Positions 12,146-21,604 of a DNA stretch of 64,000 nucleotides are shown here, in pieces. The notes below the pieces were generated by a model that did not search any database, was not told the origin of the DNA, and worked only from the letters and a program-made list of their open reading frames with translations. How positions within the stretch are numbered: position 1 is the first letter of the stretch; every line of letters begins with the position of its first letter. Location of the stretch: positions 1 through 64,000 of the forward strand of contig RDXM01000084.1 of NCBI GenBank assembly GCA_004292595.1, given 5' to 3'. The stretch comes from Candidatus Kapaibacterium sp. (GTDB lineage: Bacteria; Bacteroidota; Ignavibacteria; Kapaibacteriales; UBA4661). A program made the translations under genes and the position numbers.

Positions 12146-13198
12146 TTATTCCCGCGAATTTTCATCAACCAGAAAGAACGTGCGCATCTTACCTTTGCCT
12201 TTTATGTCAATGGTGCCGCGTTCCTCGAATTTATAGATATGATGCAACTCTTCATACACCGATTCTGAGCAGTGAATACGTCCTGCTTCGCCATGAGATT
12301 CCATGCGGCTTGCGATATTGACGGTATCGCCCCAGAGGTCATACACAAACTTCTTTGTGCCGATAACGCCCGCAACAACTGGTCCGCAGTGCATTCCGAC
12401 CCGCATAGAAATAGGATAGCCTGTGGCTGCAACAAACTGACGCAGCTCATTTTGCATCGCAAAGGTAAAGGCAGCCGCCTGCAAAGCATGGTCTTTGTCA
12501 ATGTTTGGAATGCCCGCCGCCACCATATAGCTATCGCCAATGGTCTTAATTTTCTCAACGCGATAATGGTCTAAGAGCGAGTCAAACTTAGAAAAGAGCA
12601 AATTGAGGAGCTGTACAATCTTCGTTGCCGAGACCAGCGAAGCGAGATTGGTGAAGCCAACAATATCGGTAAAAATCACGGTTACGTTCTCATATTGGTC
12701 GGCAATCGTTTCTTCACCTTCCTTCAAACGGGTTGCAATCTGGGCTGGAAGGATGTTCAGAAGAAGATTATCTGCTTTGACCTGCTCTTTTTCCAACACC
12801 ACATTGAGCTGATTGATTTCCTCAATGGACTCTTTCAACTGCTCGTTTTTATGCTGTAATTCGCTATTGGTTTGCTCAATAATTTTGGCTTGGTTGGCGA
12901 GTTCTTGTTGGGCATTCATCAATTTGCGCTGCGCCATATCGCCGATACGTGTGAGCTTGGTTGCTTGGCGGAGCAGATGCTCGTAGCGCTGCCCCAGCGT
13001 ACGATATTCCTCCAGCAATTCTGCTTGATTCATGGTATCAATACGCACAAGGGTTTCTCGGTAGTGCGTCGCAATATCTAGTTCGTTTTTAAACATTTCG
13101 TTAATATACGCCCGCTTAACATCCGCCGACACTTCCTCGTGTGGAGAGTGGTTGTGAAGCGTGTTGGCGGATGAAGATGTTGATAAATGTTGCGACAT
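12146..13198 (-). CDS. Class III adenylate cyclase with N-terminal coiled-coil stalk
   Basis: The product is 350 residues from the ATG at 13198. Residues about 20-160 are helical and coiled-coil forming, including YEHLLRQATKLTRIGD, a segment like the stalk of SiaD-type cyclases. The catalytic domain has both metal aspartates (VIFTDIVGFTNL and IGDSYMVAAG), the adenine-selecting pair Lys (VEKIKTIGDSYM) and Asp (VYDLWGDTVNIASRM), and the transition-state Asn/Arg in that last motif. These residues predict ATP as substrate, so the product should be cAMP. The gene follows SiaC by 100 bases, so its activity is probably controlled by SiaC binding. An upstream in-frame TTG would add a transmembrane-like segment but begins within a hairpin, so I prefer the ATG. 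Confidence 0.88.
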   Translation of the reverse strand: MSQHLSTSSSANTLHNHSPHEEVSADVKRAYINEMFKNELDIATHYRETLVRIDTMNQAELLEEYRTLGQRYEHLLRQATKLTRIGDMAQRKLMNAQQELANQAKIIEQTNSELQHKNEQLKESIEEINQLNVVLEKEQVKADNLLLNILPAQIATRLKEGEETIADQYENVTVIFTDIVGFTNLASLVSATKIVQLLNLLFSKFDSLLDHYRVEKIKTIGDSYMVAAGIPNIDKDHALQAAAFTFAMQNELRQFVAATGYPISMRVGMHCGPVVAGVIGTKKFVYDLWGDTVNIASRMESHGEAGRIHCSESVYEELHHIYKFEERGTIDIKGKGKMRTFFLVDENSRE

Positions 13199-13253
13199 AG
13201 CGAAGAAGAAAGCAAGCAAAACACAGAGAAAAGAGAGCAGAGCGCACAATGCC

Positions 13254-13280
13254 CAGAGACCGCCTAGCAAGCGGTCTCTG
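13254..13280. promoter_or_regulatory. Hairpin in the siaC-cyclase gap
   Basis: A perfect 10-bp inverted repeat, CAGAGACCGC (13254-13263) and GCGGTCTCTG (13271-13280), with a 7-base loop. It lies 18 bases after the siaC stop and about 55 bases before the cyclase ATG in the direction of transcription. No T-run follows on the minus strand, so it is more likely an mRNA processing or stabilising structure that sets the SiaC-to-cyclase ratio than a terminator. Confidence 0.6.
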
Positions 13281-13298
13281 TATGGAAAAGGCGGTATT

Positions 13299-13682
13299 CT
13301 AGGAGTACGGTAAATACATGATTTTCATGTCCATACCGTCAGCAAATTCCTTGCCTTGGTCTAAAATATCTTCATCATCTTCTTGGTAGTGCCAGTAGGC
13401 TTCAATTGCCCCAGCCGAGGTATAATGGTAGCTTTGCATACGGTCGAACAAATCCAGAATACATTTCGATGCGCTGGTATTAAAATAGGTAAGGCGAAAA
13501 TGCACCGAGAGGAAACGCTTTTCTTCCGTTGTAAAGGCCATAAACCATTCTACAACTTGGCTAAAAAAGGCAACGGCATCTTCGTTGAAGAATTCGCCTT
13601 CGATTTCGATAATACCATCTTCAACGTGCGCGGTAATTCCGGGCGTTGTTTTGGTACGTTCCAGTATCATATTAAGAAGCAT
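13299..13682 (-). CDS. siaC: SiaC-family regulatory phosphoprotein (DUF1987)
   Basis: The 127-residue product, taken from the ATG at 13682, matches the SiaC/DUF1987 family in length and pattern. It has an N-terminal strand pair (TPGITAHVEDGIIEIEGEFF) and the signature TYFNTSASKCILDLFDRM. In Pseudomonas aeruginosa SiaC the Thr of this N-T-S motif is phosphorylated by SiaB and dephosphorylated by SiaA, and only unphosphorylated SiaC activates its cyclase; the equivalent here is Thr69. A longer frame upstream lies wholly inside siaB. The start overlaps the siaB end by 11 bases, indicating translational coupling. Confidence 0.9.
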   Translation of the reverse strand: MLLNMILERTKTTPGITAHVEDGIIEIEGEFFNEDAVAFFSQVVEWFMAFTTEEKRFLSVHFRLTYFNTSASKCILDLFDRMQSYHYTSAGAIEAYWHYQEDDEDILDQGKEFADGMDMKIMYLPYS

Positions 13683-14241
13683 TTTCTTGTCCTTTCGAGA
13701 TATAAACGGAAAGCATATAAAATGAGGTTTCGTCATTAAAAGGCAAAAAGTCAAATTCTATGGGAAATTCAGATTTTCGCGCCATGTCAATCAGCCCCAA
13801 GCCCGCGCCCTTACTTTCAGACTGGCGTGGCAAGCGGCGTTGTTCGTTGTAATAGACCTTGAGTTGGTCTTTATTCATTTTGCTCACAATCTCACAGCGT
13901 TCGCGAATACGTGCGACGTTATCATTAAACATCAAATTTCCCGAACTAACACAATAGCAGTCGTCCATTTCGCTTACAACTAAGATGCCGACACCGCTCT
14001 CTTTGCCTTCTTCATCGACTTCTTTTTCTGCTGAATAGAACAAAATATTTTGCGACATCTCAACAAAAATCGCAAAAATTCTCTTCATGACCATTGTTTG
14101 ATTTGTCCGCGCAGCAACTTTACCACGCAGAGCGGTTGCCATCTCTACAATGGCGGGCTGGGCAAATACCCCCTTGAACGACATCAGAATCCGATTGTCG
14201 GTCATTTGGCGATATTGCTGATAAAGATTTGGGAAATCCAT
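13672..14241 (-). CDS. siaB: SiaB-family protein kinase
   Basis: The 189-residue protein corresponds to the SiaB family (DUF6272), a kinase with a GHKL/anti-sigma-factor-like fold that phosphorylates SiaC. The sequence shows an N-box-like helix (FAIFVEMSQNILFYSAEK, about residue 59) and a glycine-rich ATP-lid region SKGAGLGLIDMARKS (about residue 144). Overall length and gene order (siaA-siaB-siaC) agree with the family. It starts 45 bases after siaA and overlaps siaC. Confidence 0.88.
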   Translation of the reverse strand: MDFPNLYQQYRQMTDNRILMSFKGVFAQPAIVEMATALRGKVAARTNQTMVMKRIFAIFVEMSQNILFYSAEKEVDEEGKESGVGILVVSEMDDCYCVSSGNLMFNDNVARIRERCEIVSKMNKDQLKVYYNEQRRLPRQSESKGAGLGLIDMARKSEFPIEFDFLPFNDETSFYMLSVYISKGQENAS

Positions 14242-14286
14242 CGTGTCGTTCCTTCTTACACGGTAAAGGGTTTCATAATTTGTAAT

Positions 14287-15819
14287 TTACGCATCTAAAC
14301 GAATTCCAACAACAGTAATATCATCACGTTGTTCTTCGCTACCCTGATGCTCACGCAAGCGAGCATCAAACAAATCGTGCTGTTCCTGCATTGGCTTGGC
14401 ATGGATAGATACTATCAGTTCGCGCAATCTTCTCTTACTAAATTTTATACGCTGCGGATTACTTTGGTCGCCGAATCCATCGGAGGATAAATAGAGCAGC
14501 ATTCCTGGAGTACGCTCTATAACGTGCTGTTCAAAACTCGGCATATTTGAGCGTTGTTTGCCACCAATGTGTGCCATAGAGCCGTTTATGGTCTCTAACA
14601 CACCATCTTTGACAACATAGAGCGGCAGCCCAGCTCCAGCAAAAAGAACGCGCGTCGGTTCAATCACGCATAAACACACGTCCATACCGTCGCGTGAGAG
14701 CATATTTTCACCTTCCTGTTTTAATGCCATACGCACGGCAATATTCAAATTTTCTAAAATAAGTCTTGGTCCAGTAATGCGCTTTTGGTTCACAATTTCA
14801 TTCAACAACGTATTACCAATCATAGACATAAATGCGCCTGGTACACCATGTCCAGTACAATCCACAACTGCGATAACCTGTTTATCACCTAAATCGCTGA
14901 ACCAATAAAAATCACCAGAAACTACGTCGCGTGGCTTAAATAACACAAAGTGTTGTGGCAATAAGTCTTTCATTTCTTCAGCTTCAGGCAAAATCGCGCT
15001 TTGGATACGCTTACCGTACTCAATACTGGCACGAACCTCCTCGTTATACTCTTCAATAATATGATTTTTGTCAGTTAATTCATCATTTTTTGAGCGAATT
15101 TGCTCCATTGCCGAGCGGATATTTGCGACCATAAAGTTAAACGCACCAGAAAGAACGCCGATTTCATCGGCAGTTTCAGCTTTCACTTCCACATCAAAAT
15201 TCCCCTCAGCAACCGTCATGGAGGCTTTCGAGAGCTTGACAAGCGGCTGTACAATACGTCCAGTCTGCCAGACAAAAATCAGACCACCCAGTATAAGCAC
15301 CAACACGCCCACGGCAAAAGCAACCATACGGCTTTGACGCACGTCATCCTTCAGATTTTTTCTTGTTACCCCAACGATAATCTGCCCAATATTTTCTTTC
15401 GCTTCTGTCACCATTGGAACAAGTGCAATGGTAACGTCATCAAGGTCAATAGATTGACGACCTTTTTGTTTCAATAATGCTTGAATGTTGCTCTCAAAGG
15501 CTTGCGATTTTGAGCTTTGATATGCTGCAAAGGGTGTGGTTTCGCCAGCACGATAAATAATGGCAAATTCCACCTCTTCCAGCGATTTCAAGATATTCAA
15601 ATAGTTTTCGATTGACTTCAAATCGTCAAAAAGCAAGCCTGGCATGGTACTGAAAGAAACCATGTCGGAAATCACAAATACTTTTTGATTTAAGTATTCG
15701 GACATCTGCCGCTCTTGACGTTGCGGAAAAAAGAAGAAAATAAATGCCGCAACAATGAGCAATAACGCTACGGCCAAGCTCACGAACTTACCTTTAATTC
15801 CGAGTTTTATGTTGTCCAT
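14287..15819 (-). CDS. siaA: SiaA-like membrane PP2C (SpoIIE-type) phosphatase with HAMP domain
   Basis: The 510-residue protein has a transmembrane helix at about 13-32, a periplasmic sensory segment to about 165, a second transmembrane helix at about 168-190 and a HAMP domain starting at TGRIVQPLVKLSKASM. A helical linker leads to a SpoIIE-type PP2C domain with the metal-binding motifs DVVSGDFYWF, VVDCTGHGVPGAFMSMIG and the terminal RDDITVVGIRL. In Pseudomonas SiaA dephosphorylates SiaC. Its signal would enter through the periplasmic domain, whose ligand is unknown. It is shorter than P. aeruginosa SiaA mainly in the sensor part. Confidence 0.9.
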   Translation of the reverse strand: MDNIKLGIKGKFVSLAVALLLIVAAFIFFFFPQRQERQMSEYLNQKVFVISDMVSFSTMPGLLFDDLKSIENYLNILKSLEEVEFAIIYRAGETTPFAAYQSSKSQAFESNIQALLKQKGRQSIDLDDVTIALVPMVTEAKENIGQIIVGVTRKNLKDDVRQSRMVAFAVGVLVLILGGLIFVWQTGRIVQPLVKLSKASMTVAEGNFDVEVKAETADEIGVLSGAFNFMVANIRSAMEQIRSKNDELTDKNHIIEEYNEEVRASIEYGKRIQSAILPEAEEMKDLLPQHFVLFKPRDVVSGDFYWFSDLGDKQVIAVVDCTGHGVPGAFMSMIGNTLLNEIVNQKRITGPRLILENLNIAVRMALKQEGENMLSRDGMDVCLCVIEPTRVLFAGAGLPLYVVKDGVLETINGSMAHIGGKQRSNMPSFEQHVIERTPGMLLYLSSDGFGDQSNPQRIKFSKRRLRELIVSIHAKPMQEQHDLFDARLREHQGSEEQRDDITVVGIRLDA

Positions 15820-17383: not shown

Positions 17384-19702
17384 TTAAAACTTAATCGAAA
17401 AACTGCCATAGATACCGCGTCCTGGACGACCTGGAATACTGTTCATATTCCGACGCACATATTCAGGATACCAAATCTGCTCATCCAAAAGATTATTTAC
17501 ATACAAACCCAATATCATATCTGGCAGTGTGGTTGATTCAAATAAGCCCGAAATATTATATTGGATATTTGCTGAAAGGTAGTTATACGGGCGCACAGCA
17601 GGGTTGAGCTGACGCGTACTTGGTGTTGCAATATTACCGTGTTCAGCAAAATAAGAGTTCCAAAGGCTCACACTTAGTCCGAATGGTGACGAGTAACTTA
17701 CACCAAGTTTCAGCATCAAATGCGGCATACCCAAACCATTGATAATACTCAAAACATCTGCAGAATCAGGTGTTTCGGCAGTACGATTGTACGTTGCCGA
17801 ACCCAAAAGTGAAAATTCTTTGGAGAAATTTGCCTTGCCTTCCAACTCTAATCCCTGCGTCTGCAAGCGACCACGATTGATATAAAATGCCACATTTGAG
17901 TATGCTATTCCGTTCACAACAGCAAGATTTTCTTTTGGTAACGAACGCTTGATAACATTACGTTGGGTGCTTTGGAATGCGGTTAAAGAAATTTCATAAT
18001 TCGACGAAGCATAAAAAATTTGCGCTTCAAGAGTAGCAATTTTCTCAGGTTCAAGATTTGGATTGCCCAAAATGATATTGCGACTGAGGAAACCACGCTC
18101 GAAGGCAGATCCCGTGCGAAAGGCTTCGGCAAATAACACCTTTGCACCAAAAGATTCCGAGATGCTCCACACCGCGCCAAAGCGTGGCACAACGTCCAGT
18201 GCTTGTCCTGTAACTTGATTCAACTGCCCGCCCGCAATAAGTTTGAGGACTTTAAAAAGTTTGTAATCTACTTGGAAATACGCGCTCCACCATGTGTAAT
18301 TATAGGCAGGCAAAATACTGAACGGCGTAGCGTTGAGTGGTGCTGTGGGCTGGCTTGCATTGGGATACGGCGAACCAAACGGTGGCGGTGTAGGAATCGT
18401 GTTGTACACAGTATGACTACCCGTTTGTGTATTTGTCAGTCCACCAATAACAATGTTCATGTTTTCCACTGGCTTCAAAAAATTTGTCCATTCCACCAAA
18501 ACATCATTCGAGGCAATATCATCGCGGTCGTTGGGAATCTCGGGTCTGCCGAGGCGTACCGTGTTACCATTGTAGGTAACATTGATGGTAGAAGTCCACA
18601 CATCGGGAATAATCTGCGCTTCGTAGCCTGCATCCAGAAAAAGGCGATTCATGGTAAAATTGAAGTCAATAGGACCAGTCGCAAGTGAATTCGGCGTACC
18701 GCCCCACATCGCGTTGCGCGACAAAGCTGCTTGGCGGCTAGATGTATAATTCGCACTGAGCTTAAATCCTTGAAACTTAATACCAATATCTGCACCAATA
18801 CTGGTGTGATAGGCTCGTATTGTTTTTGCGGGAAGAATGATAGAGTCGGCGGTATTCGCTGCATTGCGGATAAAATCTTGCTCACCGCGTGTGGTGTAGT
18901 CCCAGCCTGTCGAATTAGCATATTGTCCACCGACGGTAACTTCGAGGTCGCCAATCTGAAAGCCTGTACTTGCGCCCGCTTGCAGCGTCCCAAATGAACC
19001 ATACCGTGCCGTTGCTTGTAATTTTCCTTGTGTAGAAGCTGATTTGGTAATGATATTGACAACACCTGTCAAAGCACACGTTCCGTATAGAACCGAGCCA
19101 GGACCGCGAATAATCTCAATGCGGTCAATACGCTCAATCGGGAATGCCATGTAAATAGACGCATTGTAACCATTGGAATAGCTTTCGCGCATTGGGCGAC
19201 CATTCAAGAGAATCAGAACATTTGTATTGAAACTCGCAGTATTATTTCCACGAATTGAAATCATATTGTTCGGATATAAATAGCTACCAAGACCGTACAT
19301 ACTCGTTGCGCGGTCAATGACCTCTATGAGCGAGAGCGCACCATAGCTTGCAATTTCTTTTGCTGTAATAACGCTAATCACTGCGCCTGCATCGTAAAGT
19401 TTTTCTTCGCTTTTGGAAGCCGTCGTAACGATGAGATTGATAAGTTCATCCAACGAGGAAACCCCCGCAATTTTGACCAAATCCATCACCTCGTCAAGCG
19501 GTAGGTCCAAAAGATCCTCCACCTTCATTTTGAGAATTTGCCCTCGTGTGGGTTTGGGCTTGTCTTGCTGCGGCATAGTACTATTTTTCACAGAATCTTG
19601 TGCTGGAGCTTGTCCTTGAAGAGTACTTGGCTGCAAAACTAGTGCGGACGCACCAAGCAGGAGCGCACATAAAGGGGAAAAAAGAAAGGAGCGAACATTC
19701 AT
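17384..19702 (-). CDS. TonB-dependent outer-membrane receptor
   Basis: The 772-residue product from the ATG at 19702 has a signal peptide (MNVRSFLFSPLCALLLGASA...). A short N-terminal extension follows with the motif ILKMKVEDLLDLPLDEVMDL and then LINLIVTTASKSEEKL, the usual lead-in of this receptor type. The plug domain includes GAVISVITAKEIASYG, ISIRGNNT and RIEIIRGPGSVLYG. A 22-strand barrel region ends in GSFSIKF with a terminal Phe. It should import a substrate with energy from TonB-ExbBD, whose genes are at 50-53 kb. The substrate is not evident. The YfiR-like gene upstream suggests a sensory role. Confidence 0.93.
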   Translation of the reverse strand: MNVRSFLFSPLCALLLGASALVLQPSTLQGQAPAQDSVKNSTMPQQDKPKPTRGQILKMKVEDLLDLPLDEVMDLVKIAGVSSLDELINLIVTTASKSEEKLYDAGAVISVITAKEIASYGALSLIEVIDRATSMYGLGSYLYPNNMISIRGNNTASFNTNVLILLNGRPMRESYSNGYNASIYMAFPIERIDRIEIIRGPGSVLYGTCALTGVVNIITKSASTQGKLQATARYGSFGTLQAGASTGFQIGDLEVTVGGQYANSTGWDYTTRGEQDFIRNAANTADSIILPAKTIRAYHTSIGADIGIKFQGFKLSANYTSSRQAALSRNAMWGGTPNSLATGPIDFNFTMNRLFLDAGYEAQIIPDVWTSTINVTYNGNTVRLGRPEIPNDRDDIASNDVLVEWTNFLKPVENMNIVIGGLTNTQTGSHTVYNTIPTPPPFGSPYPNASQPTAPLNATPFSILPAYNYTWWSAYFQVDYKLFKVLKLIAGGQLNQVTGQALDVVPRFGAVWSISESFGAKVLFAEAFRTGSAFERGFLSRNIILGNPNLEPEKIATLEAQIFYASSNYEISLTAFQSTQRNVIKRSLPKENLAVVNGIAYSNVAFYINRGRLQTQGLELEGKANFSKEFSLLGSATYNRTAETPDSADVLSIINGLGMPHLMLKLGVSYSSPFGLSVSLWNSYFAEHGNIATPSTRQLNPAVRPYNYLSANIQYNISGLFESTTLPDMILGLYVNNLLDEQIWYPEYVRRNMNSIPGRPGRGIYGSFSIKF

Positions 19703-19784
19703 AACGGTATGCAAAAAACGGTATGCAAAAGATGCGAAAAATCTCGTCATTACATTCTGATAAGGTCGAACTAAAAGAGCATCA

Positions 19785-20552
19785 TTACTTGCGGCGCGAG
19801 CCACTACTGGTTGCAGTCGAGGCAAGAACGGGATTGACGAGCTTGAGAATTTCTCCCAAGCGCATATCCATAAGGTCTCTGAGCTTCATGCGAAGAAGCT
19901 CCTCGCGTGTTGGATGTTTGGTGGAGCGTCCTGTTTTTGAGCTTTTCTGGTGGCGTTGTTCTTGCAGATGCTGCAAGTCCTTGTTGAATTTATCTAACGT
20001 TTGTGTTTCACGGCTTTGCTTGGAAGATGTATGCGACGGCGACGGGAGAGATACTCCCGGAACACCAGTAGTCCGTTTCTTACTGCTTGTACGCGAATGT
20101 GTATTGCTTTGTCCTGGCTGCTGGGCAGTTCTGATGGAATCAATCACCTTTGCATATTCTAGCACTGTTTCCATTGGCAAGTCTAATAATTCCTCCAACG
20201 GTATACGCAAAATCTCCTCTCGCGTACGCTTCCGTATTAAGGGCTGAATAGTATCGGGAACGCTGGCAGCTTGCTTGGTTGATATATTTTCTCCTTGAGC
20301 ATTTTCTTTTTGAGCGTTCTCTTTTGGGAGACTTTCCTTCGGAAAACTGTTTTTGGGATCAGCACCAGAGCGTATCTCTAATGAATCCTTAACAACAGGT
20401 ACAACTTGTTGAGCCAGACAATATACGTGAGCTGTTCCGAAGAAGATAATAGCAAGCGTCAGGGGCTTCACGAGTATTTTTCTGTGCGCGTCTGTCGCTA
20501 CTCTCTCAACAAGTATTGTTATGAGCGCAATCCAAGAAATATCCAAACGCAT
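19785..20552 (-). CDS. Exported protein with two TRxxxL-DLLDLP modules
   Basis: I do not recognise a named family for this 255-residue protein. A hydrophobic segment ending in TAHVYCLAQQ looks like a signal peptide; a GTG at 20471 would give it a standard N terminus, so the true start may be there. The mature part is highly charged, Ser/Thr/Lys/Gln-rich and probably disordered. It carries two related modules, TREEILRIPLEELLDLPMET and TREELLRMKLRDLMDMRLGE, which closely match the N-terminal extension of the TonB receptor encoded 82 bases downstream. A periplasmic partner or duplicated receptor extension is the simplest reading. Confidence 0.6.
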   Translation of the reverse strand: MRLDISWIALITILVERVATDAHRKILVKPLTLAIIFFGTAHVYCLAQQVVPVVKDSLEIRSGADPKNSFPKESLPKENAQKENAQGENISTKQAASVPDTIQPLIRKRTREEILRIPLEELLDLPMETVLEYAKVIDSIRTAQQPGQSNTHSRTSSKKRTTGVPGVSLPSPSHTSSKQSRETQTLDKFNKDLQHLQEQRHQKSSKTGRSTKHPTREELLRMKLRDLMDMRLGEILKLVNPVLASTATSSGSRRK

Positions 20553-20647: not shown

Positions 20648-21232
20648 TCATTGCGCTGGAAAAATAGTTGCGTATCGAAGGAAATCTGCCGAAACTTTGA
20701 GACTAAGCTCTTCAATACCTTTATTATTGACGAGAAATTTTCTATCACCCTGACTAAGCATACTAATCACGGGAAAATTTCCTAAGTTCTCGCTGCCTTC
20801 AGTAATAACAAGAGTTGGTTTACCTTTCAATACTCGTATAATTTGTGGCAAACGAGAAACATGACGAAGCGGCACAAATACAACATGGTAGTCCGCCAAC
20901 GCAGACGTAACGGCATCGGCAAGAACTATTTTAATGGTTTGCCCTGTTGTGGGGCTTTTTCTCACTAATGCTGTCTTTTCAAGATTGACTGATATCTCCG
21001 AAGGACCACCTATAACAGCAATAACGTACTCGCCCGACGTTTTTGACGGCGGAAAATAAACGTAGCGCGTTATGTTATAGATGTAAACGGCTTGAAATGC
21101 GCTGAGTGCTTTTTGTACATCTTGCTGCTGTGCGAGCATTCGTACTGGTGTCCACGATGACTGAAGAACAAAAAAGGTAAAAAGAATGCTCAGAAACGTG
21201 AGCCGATGACGATGTTGGTAACGATACATCAT
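20648..21232 (-). CDS. YfiR-like periplasmic protein (DUF4154)
   Basis: The product is 194 residues from the ATG at 21232, with a signal peptide ending before QQQDVQKALSAF. The mature part fits YfiR/DUF4154: ALSAFQAVYIYNITRYVYFP near the start, YVIAVIGGPSEIS, HVVFVPLRHVSRLPQI, then PTLVITEGSENLGNFPVISM and an ending of KVSADFLRYATIF. In Pseudomonas, YfiR is a periplasmic inhibitor of the diguanylate cyclase YfiN. In many other Proteobacteria and FCB genomes DUF4154 genes stand next to a TonB receptor, as here. Upstream codons to 21349 were dropped because the signal peptide begins at MMYRYQ. Confidence 0.85.
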   Translation of the reverse strand: MMYRYQHRHRLTFLSILFTFFVLQSSWTPVRMLAQQQDVQKALSAFQAVYIYNITRYVYFPPSKTSGEYVIAVIGGPSEISVNLEKTALVRKSPTTGQTIKIVLADAVTSALADYHVVFVPLRHVSRLPQIIRVLKGKPTLVITEGSENLGNFPVISMLSQGDRKFLVNNKGIEELSLKVSADFLRYATIFPAQ

Positions 21233-21604
21233 ACAAAGGAGAGGCGGAGAAGTAGAAAAATTGAACAGACACCTCTTTTGCGCAGCAATTTTTGTCTCCC
21301 GCATAAGGATTGAGACCCAAACGATATTGCTTGTCAAATAAAGTTTCAAAACAAAGCTGTCTTAAAAGAGAAGTCAAAGATACAAGGAAAATGAGCTAAA
21401 ACCAATAGCAATTATGCAGGTCTTGAGAAAATTTCTGTAAAACAAGCTGTATGCGCCTATCTTCATAAGCATTGGTATCGAAACTTTACTAAAGGTGCAA
21501 TGATATTTAGAAAACCTTTTCATTTTCATTTTTCCACACCACAAAAGCAGTGTATATTTGCCGCTTCCAGCAGGATTTTACTACTTTTATCACAATGGGA
21601 ATAG
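21233..21604. other. Divergent intergenic region, yfiR-like to M28 peptidase
   Basis: This AT-rich 372-base spacer should hold the promoters for both directions: the minus-strand sensory array and the plus-strand peptidase. I saw no strong palindrome and cannot assign promoter boxes with confidence. Confidence 0.45.

Follow-up and report, generated by a model that had tools for sequence, protein, structure and literature searches.

A SiaABC-type partner switch with a predicted adenylate cyclase output in Candidatus Kapaibacterium, and a putative docking stalk that recurs on other outputs

Introduction

Which output does a SiaABC phospho-switch serve when the gene that follows siaC encodes a class III cyclase in place of the GGDEF protein SiaD? 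This question is raised by a locus of Candidatus Kapaibacterium sp. (genome 96.5% complete), which lies at 12146-15819 of a window of 64,000 nucleotides, the whole stretch of DNA analysed here. We consider it likely that the locus encodes a SiaABC partner switch with an adenylate cyclase output, in which unphosphorylated SiaC would bind and activate the enzyme via a helical stalk, ATP would be converted to cyclic AMP (cAMP) and a YfiR-type protein would provide the input. Computation supports this reading with the identities of the genes, the catalytic residues, the conserved docking motif, co-occurrence and recurrence in other phyla. Within the open-access literature searched, SiaD of Pseudomonas is the only target described for SiaC, and no report of SiaC-cyclase wiring was found, a passing mention elsewhere being possible. 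DUF1987 proteins, to which SiaC belongs, have been speculated to modulate "adjacent proteins", with no mechanism given (PMC8457831).

The four genes of the locus

A sequence-only reading of this DNA had placed siaA, siaB, siaC and a class III cyclase in the interval, and all four genes were found there, with support from Pfam, NCBIfam and fold comparison. In order of transcription, with the phosphosite codon and the catalytic domain given below their genes, they are:

15819-14287, minus strand: siaA-like membrane phosphatase of 510 amino acids, with a CHASE8 periplasmic sensor, HAMP and PP2C/SpoIIE (PF17152, PF00672, PF07228)
14241-13672, minus strand: siaB-like GHKL protein kinase of 189 amino acids, Glu61 conserved (NF038262; PF19788, DUF6272)
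13682-13299, minus strand: siaC, STAS-like phosphoprotein of 127 amino acids, ATG start at 13682, overlapping the end of siaB (PF09345; AlphaFold2 fold)
13476-13478, minus strand: Thr69 codon of siaC, equivalent of the phosphorylated Thr68 (NTS) of Pseudomonas SiaC (alignment to 6k4f)
13198-12146, minus strand: class III adenylate cyclase with a predicted N-terminal SiaC-docking stalk, 350 amino acids, ATG start at 13198 (PF00211, E 1.8e-63)
12167-12703, minus strand: class III catalytic domain (alignment to AC9/AC8 chains and 13 relatives; Foldseek to 5o5l)

The SiaB-family kinase model NF038262 is passed clearly (181.3 bits vs a cut-off of 85), as is the SiaC family model PF09345 (108.8 bits vs a gathering cut-off of 24.5), while the equivalog models for SiaA, SiaC and SiaB all score under their cut-offs. 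For SiaC, NF038265 gives 83.6 bits (at least 150 required). The top NCBIfam match of the phosphatase is the SiaA model NF038263 (E 1.2e-76, below cut-off), which aligns with residues 166-509, the HAMP-PP2C half, and yields 258.7 bits against the 700 or more expected at full length with the native sensor. Because the equivalog scores fall short, the three Sia proteins are, on these profiles, family members rather than orthologues of the Pseudomonas proteins; the phosphatase is, as far as its sequence indicates, one that functions like SiaA without being its orthologue.

The residues of the phospho-switch are in place. Glu61 of SiaB, in the N-box within FVEMSQN, aligns with the Glu predicted to be catalytic in Pseudomonas aeruginosa SiaB. 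SiaC carries the NTS phosphosite as Y66-F-N68-T69-S70, and the earlier numbering of the phosphosite as T69 was correct. Its AlphaFold2 model (predicted local distance difference test, pLDDT, 94) superimposes on the SiaC chains of the crystals 6kko/7e6g with a template modelling (TM) score of ~0.92, and T69 opens helix 2 (DSSP H69-88), the same place as T68 in Pseudomonas SiaC. An upstream TTG start of siaC was replaced by the ATG at 13682.

The cyclase scores 214 bits with the class III profile. Aligned with mammalian AC9/AC8 and 13 relatives, it has all residues of a class III adenylate cyclase, namely the metal-binding D178 and D222, the adenine-selecting K218 and D287 (a Lys and Asp pair that had been claimed from the sequence) and the catalytic N294 and R298. 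The nearest Foldseek matches of the model are bacterial adenylyl cyclase domains (5o5l, E 1.9e-24), and the residues predict ATP as the substrate. A TTG start at 13270, which would add a membrane helix, was rejected; it lies inside a strong hairpin at 13254-13280, and the hydrophobic extension is not found in relatives. The ATG at 13198 is consistent with all relatives, and the cyclase is therefore taken as a soluble protein of 350 amino acids. The hairpin, which separates siaC from the cyclase gene, occurs also in the congener G275 (L041), is not obvious in G283/G341, and is possibly a partial terminator or attenuator.

The putative docking stalk and its predicted interface with SiaC

Between the start of the cyclase and its catalytic domain lie two further features:

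12752-13027, minus strand: helical stalk, residues 58-149 (92 residues), modelled by AlphaFold2 as one continuous helix up to the catalytic domain (pLDDT ~62-89)
12929-12958, minus strand: predicted SiaC-docking motif KLTRIGDMAQ, residues 81-90, corresponding to SiaD K77-Q86 (alignment; stalk hidden Markov model, E 4e-27)

In the SiaC-SiaD crystal, the contacts on SiaD are R74, K77, V78, R80, I81, S82, D83, R84, Y85, Q86, M88, R90 and D91; T68 of SiaC bonds with S82 and Q86, and binding is abolished by phosphorylation or by the triple mutation N67A/T68A/S69A (PMC8457831). Set against residues 77-86 of the crystallised SiaD (KVARISDRYQ), the window motif is identical at K77, R80, I81, D83 and Q86, which stand on a continuous helix ahead of the catalytic domain as in SiaD, and has L for V78 and G for S82. 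The sequence-only reading had recognised the stalk, which is present; the motif it quoted stops short, as the informative part extends to RIGDMAQ. A second, distal SiaC motif, which in SiaD lies ~32 residues upstream, was looked for near residues 46-57 in the window and its congeners, and none is conserved there.

The likeness to SiaD is confined to the stalk. The SiaD model NF038266 finds no GGDEF domain and gives 15.7 vs 290 bits, from an alignment of stalk residues 71-131 of the 374-residue open reading frame that is not significant (E 0.0074). A PDB sequence search with the window stalk alone did not recover SiaD; as a single sequence it is too diverged, and SiaD was reached via a homologue.

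Of 60 stalks drawn from every output type, 59 retain D83 and 57 retain Q86; the 13 stalk-cyclases all retain both. On the other side of the interface, the SiaC contacts Y65, N67, S69 and T/S68 are nearly invariant among the SiaC proteins compared. The salt bridge between SiaC position 103 and stalk position 91 is R103-D91 in Pseudomonas, R-E in gamma-proteobacteria and D-K/R elsewhere, so that opposite charges are preserved; none of 5000 shuffles was as good, in a test that ignores shared ancestry. Where siaC has no stalk neighbour, its protein departs from the others at positions 79, 107 and 114, which is what distinct targets would lead one to expect.

The stalk tracks SiaC across genomes

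Co-occurrence was examined in 395 genomes of the phylum, which were searched with PF09345 for SiaC and with a stalk profile (a hidden Markov model) built from 17 stalks found beside siaC. SiaC is encoded in 22 of these genomes and the stalk profile matches 19, with 17 genomes having both, 5 SiaC only, 2 the stalk only and 371 neither (Fisher p 1.6e-23, ignoring shared ancestry). One of the two matches among the 373 SiaC-less genomes contains a stop codon. At a threshold of E 1, the profile found no match in 24 stalk-less class III cyclases used for comparison. A motif search that made no use of the profile matched 57 of 74 stalk open reading frames vs 4 of 5757 others, and one of these four is a CheA-like kinase immediately beside siaC, a neighbour that had been missed. 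A regular-expression match in a Leptospiraceae SiaA (RIQKLSDKTQ) was considered as a docking site and dismissed as chance: it lies in an ATPase-like region, ~930 residues ahead of the PP2C domain.

The association extends to gene neighbourhoods, and locus inspection shows the same motif recurring, on differing outputs, in the gene that adjoins siaC. The neighbours of 144 distinct SiaC genes were compared, a set in which Bacteroidota and SiaC-like loci are over-represented; in 54 cases a stalk gene lies no more than 2.5 kb away, and all but one of these share the strand of siaC. The outputs of these neighbours, confirmed by Pfam with examples of each kind, are GGDEF (19), class III cyclase (9), histidine kinase (8), Ser/Thr kinase (6), PP2C (3), a stand-alone helix (4) and others (5); the window enzyme is a tenth stalk class III cyclase beyond the nine counted.

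Recurrence and exchange of the output domain

The pairing of siaC with a stalk class III cyclase, for which a search of other genomes had been proposed, is found in three congeners (L041, L043, L045), in five Leptospiraceae loci (L217/L078, L219, L220/L081, L221, L223), in four of which a GAF domain separates stalk from cyclase, and in one Acidobacteriota genome (L225/L134), there on divergent strands. The catalytic domains of the stalk-cyclases do not form one clade (p-AU 0.007, approximately unbiased test); the best tree has four changes, at least two of them forced, with long branches at L219 and L225. On the SiaC tree, which has few alignment columns, six output types need ten changes, where five is the minimum possible. 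By both trees, output exchange has occurred more than once. The earlier suggestion that the output domain is exchangeable is thereby borne out and widened, with at least five output kinds carrying the stalk, beyond the two cyclase types. In Thermochlorobacteraceae, genomes with siaC-stalk-GGDEF also carry an unlinked stalk class III cyclase (L251-L253), and a single SiaC may drive both the c-di-GMP (cyclic di-GMP) and the cAMP enzyme.

Other arrangements were seen beside siaC. Six Acidobacteriota loci (L227, L228, L230, L232, L234, L248) have a eukaryote-type Ser/Thr protein kinase with a docking stalk directly 3' of siaC, and four loci (L052, L053, L054, L055) have stand-alone docking-helix proteins of ~77-99 amino acids, perhaps adaptors. 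In other Bacteroidota (L059, L063, L064, L056), the gene adjoining siaC resembles a TerB-ABC transporter fusion (by Pfam in L059) and has no stalk; the SiaC interface residues differ in these four, which suggests another kind of target.

Messenger context of the host genome

The host genome encodes 19 class III cyclases and 13 proteins that bind cyclic nucleotide monophosphates (cNMP). Its single GGDEF domain, in a GAF protein of 1043 amino acids, is degenerate (RYLGN in place of GG(D/E)EF) and has no stalk, so that a separate GGDEF protein as the target of SiaC, which had been named as an outcome that would overturn the proposal, is unlikely.

Three stalk proteins are encoded in this genome. 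One is the window cyclase; the others, on contigs C76 (L249) and C105 (L250), are HisKA histidine kinases, orphans in that no siaC lies nearby. SiaC genes number four in all, and the three outside the window (L034 on C55, L035 on C3, L036 on C80) have no adjoining stalk gene. The siaC on C3 adjoins a CheW-receiver (CheV-like) gene, with neither SiaA nor SiaB, and likewise in the congener G275 (L039).

Proposed mechanism and competing explanations

By analogy with SiaD, SiaC should clamp the stalk dimer. In the mechanism that we propose, SiaB would phosphorylate SiaC at Thr69 and thereby switch the output off, and SiaA would dephosphorylate it and switch the output on once its CHASE8 domain detects an envelope or outer-membrane signal, probably relayed by a YfiR-like periplasmic protein encoded upstream. 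Unphosphorylated SiaC would then bind KLTRIGDMAQ on both stalk helices of the cyclase dimer, stabilise the stalk and align the two class III catalytic domains for the conversion of ATP to cAMP, which would be received by at least one of the 13 cNMP-binding proteins. A 2:2 rather than a 2:4 complex is expected, as the docking motif is single in the cyclase and double in SiaD.

SiaC could also dock with the opposite effect, keeping the cyclase off or merely localising it, with phosphorylation by SiaB releasing and activating the enzyme. Conserved docking residues fit this alternative equally, as sequence does not fix the sign, and the register of the stalk between motif and catalytic domain varies among outputs, as with the GAF domain inserted in Leptospiraceae. 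We nevertheless hold it to be unlikely. Class III cyclases also need an aligned dimer. In the sole measured case, unphosphorylated SiaC activates through stabilisation of the stalk dimer (PMC8457831).

It is considerably less probable that the cyclase is a mere neighbour and that SiaC of this locus targets another stalk protein, for example the orphan histidine kinases on C76 and C105. The stalks of these kinases, which have no adjoining siaC, and the hairpin ahead of the cyclase gene speak for such a target, yet the cyclase is among only three stalk proteins of the genome, it adjoins siaC in all four congeners examined, and the pairing recurs in other phyla. That the stalk is a generic signalling helix with no relation to SiaC is hardly credible: sensors are often joined to cyclases or kinases by coiled-coil linkers and the motif is partly of low complexity, but the matches in SiaC-less genomes, stalk-less cyclases and other open reading frames are too few, as counted above.

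Several observations weigh against activation of the cyclase by unphosphorylated SiaC as proposed. The contact residues of the window SiaC are changed at four positions (I71 to S, R103 to D, L107 to Q, D114 to G); siaA is not adjacent in two congeners; co-expression may be incomplete, given the hairpin; and with two orphan stalk kinases and three SiaC paralogues in the genome, cross-talk or another target is possible.

Probable input of the SiaA-like phosphatase

Residues 16-235 of the SiaA-like phosphatase resemble the sensor of YfiR-associated histidine kinases (NF053592, NCBIfam, below cut-off) and are also YfiN-like. The genes ahead of siaA that run in the same direction encode a YfiR-like protein, a protein of 255 amino acids, a TonB receptor and an amine oxidase; among them are:

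20648-21349, minus strand: YfiR/HmsC-like periplasmic protein, probable input partner of CHASE8 (PF13689; order as in G275)
17384-19825, minus strand: TonB-dependent receptor with a putative role, encoded between siaA and the YfiR-like gene (PF00593, PF07715; order as in G275)

The congener G275 preserves the gene order from the YfiR-like gene to siaA at 82-92% identity (56% for the 255-residue protein), and siaB-siaC-cyclase occurs without the YfiR-like gene run in two other congeners. From this gene context, the YfiR-like protein probably gates SiaA.

Implications

We lean towards a general interpretation, in which SiaC and the docking helix form a bacterial plug-and-socket switch with a portable stalk of ~80 residues, reassorted repeatedly across phyla, and one Thr phospho-switch governs dimer-activated diguanylate or adenylate cyclases, histidine kinases, Ser/Thr kinases, PP2C phosphatases and stand-alone adaptors; in the window, it would connect a YfiR-type envelope signal to cAMP. 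The docking helix would then serve as a sequence rule for predicting the targets of SiaC, namely any stalk-bearing protein, and as a natural part for engineered signalling. Depending on the lineage, a single type of phospho-switch is predicted to govern cAMP, c-di-GMP or protein phosphorylation. In the literature searched, no earlier STAS-type partner switch acts directly on a class III cyclase; if true, this one would be the first.

Comparison with known systems

The closest known system is SiaABCD of Pseudomonas aeruginosa (PMC8457831, PMC7647112, PMC7278518), with which the locus shares the order siaA-siaB-siaC, the NTS phosphosite, Glu61 of SiaB, the SiaC fold and a fourth gene whose helical stalk bears a SiaC-binding motif. 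It differs in its output, a class III adenylate cyclase in place of the GGDEF protein SiaD, in having one docking motif rather than two, in the CHASE8 (YfiN-like) sensor of its SiaA and in several interface residues whose charges are swapped. HptB-HptR-HsbA/HsbD and BgrSTUWV/BgrR also involve a phospho-regulated STAS-type protein that docks on a second-messenger cyclase (PMC8457831); their output, however, is c-di-GMP, and the docking protein is a classic STAS protein, not SiaC (DUF1987).

On the input side, YfiBNR (YfiR-YfiN) resembles the locus in combining a YfiR/HmsC-like protein and a CHASE8 sensor within one gene run; CHASE8 sits on a PP2C phosphatase in the window and on a diguanylate cyclase in YfiN, and the functional link in the window is a putative one. 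On the output side, the fold and all metal, adenine and transition-state residues are those of soluble class III adenylyl cyclases of bacteria (for example 5o5l, with 46-48% identity across the domain), to which the window enzyme adds the predicted SiaC-docking stalk and genetic coupling to SiaABC.

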